Made by a program: the position numbers and the translations under genes. A stretch of 64,000 nucleotides of DNA. Origin: Balneolaceae bacterium (GTDB lineage: Bacteria; Bacteroidota; Rhodothermia; Balneolales; Balneolaceae). Location: NCBI GenBank assembly GCA_018401935.1, contig JAGYJQ010000001.1:124001-188000 (forward strand), read 5' to 3'. Below, one piece after another: positions 6,804-61,503 of the stretch. A model generated the notes under the pieces. The model was not told the DNA's origin. It ran no database searches and saw only the letters and a program-made list of their open reading frames with translations. Every line of letters begins with the position of its first letter. Within the stretch, counting starts at the first letter, position 1.

Positions 6804-7193
6804 ATGCCTACTTGGACACTGCACACAGAATTTAAATTTGACGCGGCCCATTATATCGATGGGTATGATGGTAAGTGCGGACGAATGCACGGTCATACCT
6901 ACAAAGTTCACATGAAAGCAAAATCACATAAACTAAATCCCTCTGCCTATTTGAAAACCTCGGATATGGTTTGTGATTTCAAAGAATTAAAATGGGCGGC
7001 AAAAGACTCCGAAAGAGGTGGCTTTGATCACGGAGTTTTAAATGATCTTATGCAGGAAAATACCACAGCCGAACGAATTGCTGAATACATTCATCAAGAA
7101 ACCAAGAAGAGAATTCCTTCCGGGATAGAACTAGAAGTCACGGTATGGGAGACGGAGACCTCATGGGTCAGTTATACCGATAAAGATGTTTAA
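6804..7193 (+). CDS. queD: 6-carboxytetrahydropterin synthase (QueD/PTPS family)
   Basis: QueD converts dihydroneopterin triphosphate to 6-carboxy-tetrahydropterin, an early step of queuosine (7-deazaguanine) synthesis. The 129-residue length is standard. The zinc ligands are visible as His16 (AAHYIDG) and His29/His31 (GRMHGHTY), with catalytic Cys25 in KCGRMHGH; the C-terminal ETETSW holds the substrate-binding glutamate region. The next gene is queE, overlapping by 8 bases, which supports the QueD rather than the PTPS assignment. Confidence 0.94.
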   Translation: MPTWTLHTEFKFDAAHYIDGYDGKCGRMHGHTYKVHMKAKSHKLNPSAYLKTSDMVCDFKELKWAAKDSERGGFDHGVLNDLMQENTTAERIAEYIHQETKKRIPSGIELEVTVWETETSWVSYTDKDV

Positions 7194-7830
7194 CACCACT
7201 GCCATAGCCAGCGACCTAAAAAGTAGTTTCATGGAAGTGCACTACCCAATAATGGAGCATTTTTATACCATTCAAGGAGAGGGCTACCATACTGGTGCTC
7301 CAGCTTATTTTATACGAACGGCTGGGTGTGATGTGCAATGTTGGTGGTGTGATGTAAAAGATAGTTGGGATGGAGAAAAACACCCTTTAATTTCGGTGAA
7401 ATACCTTTGCGAGCAAGTAAAAGACTCGGGTGCTGACAAGGTGGTAATCACTGGGGGAGAACCTTTGCTGCATGATTTGCAACCCCTCACCACCGAGCTC
7501 AAAAAGTTAGCCGTAGATGTTCATATTGAAACCAGTGGGTCATCGCCTCTCTCAGGCACACTCGACTGGGTAACCCTGTCACCCAAACGTTTTAAAAAGC
7601 CTTTACCTGAAGTGTATGAGCACGTAGATGAATTAAAAGTAGTCGTATTAACCAATAAAGATATCGAATGGGCAGAATCAGAGGCTCAAAAGTGTCCTAA
7701 AACCGCTCGGCTTTACCTTCAACCCGAATGGGATACGGCCGAATCCATTCCTTTAATCGTCGATTATGTGAAAAAAAACCCTCAATGGGCGATAAGTTTA
7801 CAAACCCATAAGTTTCTAGATGTACCATGA
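7186..7830 (+). CDS. queE: 7-carboxy-7-deazaguanine synthase (radical SAM)
   Basis: QueE is the radical-SAM enzyme that converts the QueD product into 7-carboxy-7-deazaguanine. The protein is 214 residues long. The cluster motif CDVQCWWC gives Cys48, Cys52 and Cys55 in the CxxxCxxC spacing. It is preceded by the family hallmark YTIQGEGYHTG, and a GGEP motif follows (ITGGEPLLH). An ATG at 7231 would remove 15 poorly conserved residues and may be the true start; the ATG at 7186 overlaps queD by 8 bases. Its stop overlaps the SDR start as ATGA. Confidence 0.94.
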   Translation: MFNTTAIASDLKSSFMEVHYPIMEHFYTIQGEGYHTGAPAYFIRTAGCDVQCWWCDVKDSWDGEKHPLISVKYLCEQVKDSGADKVVITGGEPLLHDLQPLTTELKKLAVDVHIETSGSSPLSGTLDWVTLSPKRFKKPLPEVYEHVDELKVVVLTNKDIEWAESEAQKCPKTARLYLQPEWDTAESIPLIVDYVKKNPQWAISLQTHKFLDVP

Positions 7831-8540
7831 TTAATTCAACGAATGCGGTATGCATTACTGGGGCTTCTCGTGGAATAGGGCGAACGATAGCTCATGCATT
7901 TTCTACCAAGGGTTTTCCTCTCATTTTGACGGCGCGTTCGGTCGATCAGTTATCCAAAGTGAAAGAAGAATGCCTAGAAGCTGGGGCGTCACAAGTGGAG
8001 ATAATAGAGGTAGATTTCTTAGCGGATAATCCACTCCGGGAGTTGGAACAAACGCAGTCTGAGCCATCTATATTAATCAATAACGCAGGAGATTTTTTAT
8101 TTAAAGATCTGCAGGACTCAACCGATCACGATTACCTACATCAATTCTCTGTAAATGCCTTAGGAACCATCCGGGTTACCGATCATCTACTGCCCGTACT
8201 CAGCAGGCAAAAGCAGTCACTTATTGTGAATATTTGTTCCAAAGCATCCGTAGTTGGTTATGCTGATGCAAGTGCATACAGCGTAAGTAAGCATGCCCTC
8301 TATGGATATGGAAAGGCATTGCGGGCTCATCTTCTACACTTCGCCCCCCACGTTGCTTGTACAAATATACTTTTAGGTCAAACACTCTCTAGTTCGTGGG
8401 ATGGCTTAGATGTGGACCACGAGTTGTTAATTGACCCGGTTGATCTAGCGGAAGTGATCATTGCTCTAACCCGATTAGGTGCTCGAACAGTAGTGGAAGA
8501 AATGACCATTATGCCATCCAAAGGAGAGCTTCCAAGATGA
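7827..8540 (+). CDS. Short-chain dehydrogenase/reductase, possibly sepiapterin-reductase-like
   Basis: A 237-residue classical SDR that should use NAD(P)H. The nucleotide motif TGASRGIG is at 11-18, NNAG at 85-88, and the catalytic residues are Ser138, Tyr151 and Lys155 (YSVSK). The C-terminus carries RTVVEEMTIMPSKGEL, which resembles the end of bacterial sepiapterin reductases as I recall them. With queD and queE directly upstream (ATGA overlap), a pterin substrate is plausible, but this is inference; general SDRs share much of this sequence. The stop overlaps a small downstream ORF, again as ATGA. Confidence 0.85.
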   Translation: MINSTNAVCITGASRGIGRTIAHAFSTKGFPLILTARSVDQLSKVKEECLEAGASQVEIIEVDFLADNPLRELEQTQSEPSILINNAGDFLFKDLQDSTDHDYLHQFSVNALGTIRVTDHLLPVLSRQKQSLIVNICSKASVVGYADASAYSVSKHALYGYGKALRAHLLHFAPHVACTNILLGQTLSSSWDGLDVDHELLIDPVDLAEVIIALTRLGARTVVEEMTIMPSKGELPR

Positions 8541-8635
8541 AAGTATGGGCAACTACATCAAGCGTATGGGCAACTGCATCAAGCGTATGGGCAACTGCTT
8601 CAACCATAAAGGTAATTGAATCCAGTTATACCTAA
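8537..8635 (+). CDS. Candidate 32-residue heptapeptide-repeat mini-protein
   Basis: The ATG at 8537 overlaps the SDR stop as ATGA, and AAGGAG at 8521-8526 lies 10 bases upstream. The peptide is MKVWATT followed by two SSVWATA units and a diverged end (STIKVIESSYT). Each heptad comes from one 21-bp tandem DNA repeat, so the repeat keeps the frame. No family is recognised. It could be a chance reading of a non-coding repeat, since AAGGAG is also SDR coding sequence. The matching coupling style (ATGA, as between queE and SDR) is the main argument for real translation. Confidence 0.4.
   Translation: MKVWATTSSVWATASSVWATASTIKVIESSYT
8540..8602. repeat. Three tandem copies of a 21-bp repeat
   Basis: Copies lie at 8540-8560, 8561-8581 and 8582-8602. 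The last two differ by one base and the first differs from the second at three. A fourth diverged unit (about 13 of 21 matches) may follow at 8603-8623. The shared core is GTATGGGCAACT. It lies between the convergent SDR and purC genes and encodes the heptad of the candidate mini-protein. Confidence 0.9.
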
Positions 8636-8683: not shown

Positions 8684-9637
8684 TTAGCTAAGATAGGGAG
8701 AAAAGGTCGCTTTTAGATCGCTGTTGATATCTTCAATGAGAGTGGGAGAAAAGGTGGATCCGGTTAACAATTCGAATAGTTGAGCATATCGTTCGTACAC
8801 CTCTATTCGAAATGAGTCGGGTAAATCTGGAAGGACTTGGCCTTCTTTTCCCTGAAAGTTATTATTCATGAGCCATTCTCTAAGAAACTCCTTAGAGAGT
8901 TGTTTCTGAGGCTGTTGGTTATTTTGCCGTTGTTCAAAGCCATCGGCATAAAAATATCGAGAAGAATCGGTAGTATGAACTTCATCGATAAGGGTTAGCT
9001 CACCTTCATATAAGCCAAATTCATACTTGGTATCTACAAGAATAAGCCCTTGTTCACGTGCTATTTGTTGGCCTGTGCTAAATAATTCAAAGGCCTTTTC
9101 TCTTATTTCTGCCCAAAGAGTAGCACTTACAATATTCTGAGCAAGTATTTCTTGTTCCGAAATATCTTCATCATGACCTTCGGATGCCTTGGTGGCTGGG
9201 GTTAGAATGGGCTCTGGAAGAGGATCGTGTTCGTTCAGACCTTCGGGCAGGGTAACCCCACAAAGAGTACGTACCCCACTTTTGTACGTTCTCCAAGCAT
9301 GACCAGTTAAATGAGCCCGAATAACCACCTCAATCGGTATGGGAACGCATTTTTTGGCAATGGTAATATTGGGATGTGGTACCTCAATAATATGATTTGG
9401 CACAATATGAGATACCTTTTCAAATCCAAATTCTGCTAGTTGATTGAGGATTTGACCCTTAAAAGGAATAGCCTGATGCATGATGAAATCAAAGGCAGAT
9501 ATTCTGTCCGTCACCAAAATACCCAGCGTTTGGCTATTCAGGGTATAGACTTCTCTAACTTTGCCTTTGTAGGGTTCTGAAATACTAGGATGAGAACTCG
9601 TAGTAATGCAGTGTGTAAGTGCGCGCTGAAAATCCAA
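8684..9637 (-). CDS. purC: Phosphoribosylaminoimidazole-succinocarboxamide (SAICAR) synthase
   Basis: PurC joins aspartate to CAIR in de novo purine synthesis, using ATP. Visible family motifs are the N-terminal YKGKVREVYTL, then TDRISAFDFIMHQAIPFKG, and VDTKYEFG with LIDEVHTTDSSR. At 317 residues it is the longer form (about 300, as in yeast) rather than the ~240-residue E. coli form. No ATG exists before FIM near residue 53, so a TTG at 9637 is the probable start. It lies 55 bp downstream of the LacI-type regulator on the same strand. Confidence 0.96.
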   Translation of the reverse strand: MDFQRALTHCITTSSHPSISEPYKGKVREVYTLNSQTLGILVTDRISAFDFIMHQAIPFKGQILNQLAEFGFEKVSHIVPNHIIEVPHPNITIAKKCVPIPIEVVIRAHLTGHAWRTYKSGVRTLCGVTLPEGLNEHDPLPEPILTPATKASEGHDEDISEQEILAQNIVSATLWAEIREKAFELFSTGQQIAREQGLILVDTKYEFGLYEGELTLIDEVHTTDSSRYFYADGFEQRQNNQQPQKQLSKEFLREWLMNNNFQGKEGQVLPDLPDSFRIEVYERYAQLFELLTGSTFSPTLIEDINSDLKATFSPYLS

Positions 9638-61359: not shown

Positions 61360-61381
61360 AATGATTGAGTCTGTTGTACTC

Positions 61382-61426
61382 TTTTATGCTCTGTTGTATT
61401 CTGAAATGCTGTTTTATGCTCTGTTG
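61382..61426. repeat. Two 15-bp direct copies (TTTTATGCTCTGTTG) 30 bp apart
   Basis: Copies are at 61382-61396 and 61412-61426, identical over all 15 bases. They lie in the 144-bp gap upstream of queG and downstream of the FtsE-like gene. A regulator binding pair is possible but nothing else supports it. Confidence 0.6.
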
Positions 61427-61503
61427 AACGGATATATGGTGATTTATTAATTTAACGAGTAATGGTGCTAGCTAATTAATTACACGAATAGGATACGGAC
61501 TAC

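Follow-up and report, generated by a model that had tools for sequence, protein, structure and literature searches.

Head-to-tail arrays of short repeat units are usually accounted for by slippage or short-homology recombination in a little-constrained spacer. PMC2884548 characterises bacterial minisatellites by a minimum unit length of 20 bp, a minimum of two copies and an identity of at least 90%, and regards slippage between short repeats as a likely process behind many of the small variable segments in bacterial genomes. Other short direct repeats have been described as well, including the TAACTGA heptamers of Beggiatoaceae, Cyanobacteria and Bacteroidetes (PMC4679880).

Here, we describe a 21-bp tandem array just past the stop codon of an SDR gene, together with the 32-codon open frame that runs through it. 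The array is an ordinary repeat of a known kind, and it is highly probable that the frame is a chance open frame over a minisatellite-type expansion in the spacer that separates the 3' ends of two convergent genes. The locus is not named in the literature found, in searches that were not directed at it by name.

The array and the frames it opens

The window (the whole 64-kb stretch of DNA analysed, from genome G000) carries three genes head to tail at 6804-8540. These encode a QueD/PTPS-like protein (6804..7193, forward strand; above the PF01242 cut-off and below the curated NCBIfam QueD cut-off), a QueE-like radical SAM protein (7186..7830, forward; below curated NCBIfam cut-offs) and an SDR family oxidoreductase (7827..8540, forward; PF00106), for which 79 of 92 family genomes hold a match at E <= 1e-40. 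The purC gene for SAICAR synthase (8684..9637, reverse strand) is convergent with the SDR gene across a 143-base spacer.

Three near-identical 21-bp units (8543-8563, 8564-8584 and 8585-8605; 8543..8605 as a whole, with no strand assigned) stand in tandem in this spacer, as established by a repeat finder, shuffles and unit comparison. They are followed by a fourth, diverged unit (8606..8626, likewise without a strand), so that the three copies plus one diverged copy of the original prediction are confirmed. Tandem Repeats Finder describes 8543-8603 as a period of 21 with 2.9 copies and 95% matches, and its score of 108 is the highest of the 23 rows returned for the 64-kb window. Units 1 and 2 are identical at 20/21 bases (95%), units 2 and 3 at 19/21 (90%) and units 1 and 3 at 18/21 (86%). 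Unit 4 matches units 1-3 at 11-13 of 21; its identity with unit 3 was reached by 3 of 2000 shuffles and that with unit 2 by none of 2000. Sequence matching the unit appeared in 0/100 shuffled windows, which places the array far beyond chance. Arrays of comparable strength do occur elsewhere: outside the window, 300 kb of the same contig hold one with a score of at least 100. A point against an ordinary repeat is that the SDR-adjacent array outranks nearly all others observed, being second by score among the arrays of the window and this sample. A two-copy, 36-bp tandem repeat on the same contig (L105:9175-9245) scores 114. Another imperfect tandem repeat lies within the window at 61370-61447, with rows of periods 10, 20 and 30 and scores up to 70.

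The frame at 8537..8635 (forward) is probably not a gene. It begins on the SDR stop as ATGA, ends at TAA and translates into the 32 residues MKVWATTSSVWATASSVWATASTIKVIESSYT. As predicted, the repeat stays in frame and yields SSVWATA heptads, which in the array's own phase read VWATTSS/VWATASS/VWATAST. This openness follows from the unit itself, since a period of 21 is a multiple of three and none of the forward frames of the unit contains a stop. Four of the six frames are open across the array, and the ORF list and a frame scan also give an antisense frame of 32 codons over it (8509..8607, reverse), which shows that more than one frame is opened by the array. If the SDR stop were read through, G000 would yield YGQLHQA-like heptads, but in the congener G004 the next stop comes after one codon.

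Copy number in related genomes

The genus sample comprised nine genomes, G000 included, and close SDR, queE and purC genes were found in six of them. The other three (G002, G003 and G007, with completeness of 86%, 67% and 63%) are uninformative: at the limits used, their SDR matches are all distant, and for queE and purC they have none. By purC identity, G004 is 94.7% identical to G000 and G005, G006 and G008 are 81.5-83.4% identical.

The 21-bp segment just past the SDR stop is present in one copy in each of G005, G006 and G008, in two copies in G004 and in four in G000. The spacers are correspondingly shorter than that of G000, by 40 bases in G004, 58 in G005 and G006 and 59 in G008, where two and three units would amount to 42 and 63. 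In G001, the spacer is gone and purC extends into the SDR end. At three mismatches or fewer, the 21-mer has three sites in G000, all at the array, and none in the eight congeners. The best match to unit 4 is 17/21 in G004, 15/21 in G005, 14/21 in G006 and 17/21 in G008, values reached by 0, 0, 9 and 0 of 500 shuffles, respectively. In G005, G006 and G008, units 1, 2 and 3 also each match best at this same place. Unit 4 is the older copy, orthologous to the single unit of these three genomes and to unit two of the G004 pair.

These observations suggest an order of events. Units 1-3 are identical to one another at 18-20 of 21 bases, compared with 15/21 between unit 3 and its counterpart, the first unit of G004, which argues that their multiplication postdates the separation from G004. 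Unit divergence thus supports an origin of the three youngest copies by tandem duplication within the G000 lineage, most likely through replication slippage or another short-homology event, to judge from copy numbers and unit divergence. The resulting array leaves the frame open, with a start supplied by chance where the last SDR codon and the stop (AGA and TGA) spell ATG, and no peptide function is needed to account for the feature.

The direction from one to two to four copies rests on unit divergence. In a protein tree of purC, queE and SDR (780 columns, with the distant G001 as outgroup), G005, G006 and G008 group with a support of 100 and G000 and G004 with only 53, so that the root and a strict 1-2-4 order are unproven. 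In an SDR-only tree with a distant outgroup, resolution is poor and G000 and G004 are ungrouped when rooted on G001.

The source of the unit was also sought outside the spacer. Matches to the 21-mer occur in 8 of 92 family genomes, and each of the seven outside G000 has one match with three mismatches; about five would be expected from base counts, and a backward control gave one. Those of G093 and G108 fall in queD, in a conserved VWETETS/VWETESS stretch resembling VWATASS. A derivation of the array from the queD tail was considered and rejected: at its own queD site (7143), the window agrees with units 1, 2 and 3 at only 10, 11 and 12 of 21 bases, a level that shuffled units also attain, and unit 2 is matched at 13-14 of 21 in several further places of the window. 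Five genomes gave 15 unit-by-genome comparisons with queD, of which a single one stood out (unit 3 and the queD of G008, 14/21, reached by 1 of 300 shuffles). The value for unit 3 in G004 was reached by 31/300 shuffles and those of the remaining 13 comparisons by at least 40/300. Comparing the whole spacer with the window's queD gave a 10-base match, which 44 of 500 shuffles reached and which other places exceed. The resemblance between array and queD is taken as chance. A mobile or viral source found no support either: the exact 20-mer had no matches in viral contigs, and the 601-base region had no match in plasmid records.

The 32-codon frame as a possible gene

The original prediction offered two readings, an as yet undescribed small protein, which is the one its title names, and a repeat in frame by chance. 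The former would be a real heptapeptide-repeat protein, coupled to the SDR by termination-reinitiation at the ATGA and conserved at least within the species. We regard such a protein as very unlikely. Points in its favour lie at the start of the frame. The ATG overlaps the SDR stop at 8537-8540 exactly as described, being formed by the last codon, AGA, and the TGA stop, and the same ATGA overlap joins queE to the SDR gene, where it is kept in all 6 genus genomes in which the pair was found. The predicted AAGGAG is also present at a plausible distance, within AAAGGAGA (8520..8527, forward), a Shine-Dalgarno-like sequence.

The SDR 3' end reads AAA GGA GAG CTT CCA AGA TGA, so that AAAGGAGA lies within the codons for Lys-Gly-Glu at the C-terminus of the SDR. 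All five genomes with the spacer retain it, those lacking the frame included, and it is absent from G001. The supposed ribosome site is thus part of the coding sequence of the SDR and is retained in relatives without the frame. Moreover, among the ORFs of at least 150 aa in the window that start with ATG (taking the first ATG as the start), SD-like cores precede only 3/51, with 0/51 at a control distance; given this rarity, the motif is not the usual start signal of the G000 genome. The scarcity of such cores before the window's long ORFs recalls Bacteroidia, whose ribosomes reportedly do not recognise SD sequences (PMC9976891).

Conservation of the frame, the property expected of a coupled small protein, is likewise missing. 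The original prediction took frame-breaking repeat numbers or indels, or loss of the ATG, in relatives as counting against the protein; among the relatives the copy number does differ, the ATG is lost and stops come early. In three of the four congeners with a spacer (G005, G006 and G008) the counterpart is missing: the junction is GTGA, owing to a synonymous AGG in place of AGA, and a stop ends the frame three codons in. In G001 the frame is lost with the spacer. Only G004 has a counterpart, which counts in favour of the protein, but it is 18 codons long and its sequence, MNLRVAASTIQANESSYT, differs from that of G000. The wider family gives a similar picture. Of the 79 genomes with an SDR match, 30 SDR loci were examined, and a frame of at least 15 codons starting at -4 on the SDR stop was found in three (the window, G004 and L063), that of L063 being an unrelated sequence of 20 codons with a TTG start. 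A further eight loci have unrelated frames of 16-41 codons that start 11-37 bases past the SDR stop, and such downstream frames are therefore common.

The original prediction had also proposed asking whether substitutions are synonymous, and G004, the only relative with a comparable frame, shows no synonymous excess. With the G000 array collapsed to one copy, 12 of 57 bases differ, distributed 4/3/5 over the codon positions, and the change is nonsynonymous in 8 of the 11 changed codons. Residues are identical at 10 of 18 positions against 10.5 expected (P = 0.78), although a test over 18 codons has low power. Differences between the SDR genes of the same two genomes fall mainly at third positions (28/7/64). 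Those of the frame fit the expectation without selection, unlike those of the SDR, and no purifying selection is detected, again within the low power of 18 codons. One point against a chance frame is that G000 and G004 are both open from ATGA to TAA and share the last residues ESSYT. This is weak counter-evidence, as placing the same substitutions at random leaves the frame open in 79% of cases.

Length gives no support for a gene. Frames of at least 32 codons arise in 17% of shuffled spacers and in 44% of tiled arrays of a shuffled unit, so that under either null the open frame, unlike the array, is not beyond chance. That the repeats keep frame is a further point for the protein. The 32-residue peptide has no Pfam or NCBIfam match, which at such a length says little. 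In summary, none of the tests of length, selection, start signal or Pfam/NCBIfam matches supports a gene, the selection test having low power on so short a frame. On sequence comparison, the small-protein reading is not supported, and the relatives and shuffles side with the other half of the prediction, a repeat in frame by chance.

A variant of the protein reading, which we also consider very unlikely, is that the peptide is very young. In the G000 lineage, slippage would have extended an SDR-coupled frame of 18 codons, one that is available when the SDR's final codon is AGA and not AGG, into a translated heptad peptide of 32 residues before selection could leave a mark. Were the peptide made, slippage would here have given birth to a gene. 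It is extremely unlikely that the array works as DNA or RNA, whether by binding protein at its repeats, as a terminator or as a processing element. It does sit in a 3' spacer between convergent genes, and its unit of 21 bp comes close to two helical turns of DNA. However, the folding of either strand is no better than that of shuffles (z 0.08 and -0.62), no terminator-like site was found in the SDR-purC spacer, units 1-3 are not conserved in relatives and the genome does not carry scattered copies of the 21-mer.

Comparison with known repeats and coupled frames

A chance frame over an expanded spacer repeat, the reading preferred here, is of slight significance in itself. It nevertheless offers a clean case of a tandem repeat with a period that is a multiple of three mimicking a small gene. 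Both the apparent start codon and the ribosome-site-like sequence are borrowed from the SDR, which calls for caution in small-ORF annotation. With translationally coupled small ORFs, a generally familiar kind, the locus shares the ATGA junction and an SD-like sequence; unlike them, its frame is unconserved and without detectable purifying selection, and its SD-like sequence comes from SDR codons. The TAACTGA repeats of PMC4679880 are similar in being short direct repeats that adjoin genes, but they differ in having a 7-bp unit of another sequence and many sets per genome, compared with the single site here.

The closest likeness is to bacterial minisatellites and VNTR loci. Variation here is between species only, at one genome per species, and follows the pattern of these loci, with head-to-tail copies whose number differs at the same site among related genomes (1, 1, 1, 2 and 4). 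By the size and identity values given in PMC2884548, the array also conforms, with a unit of 21 bp and two of the three unit pairs at least 90% alike.
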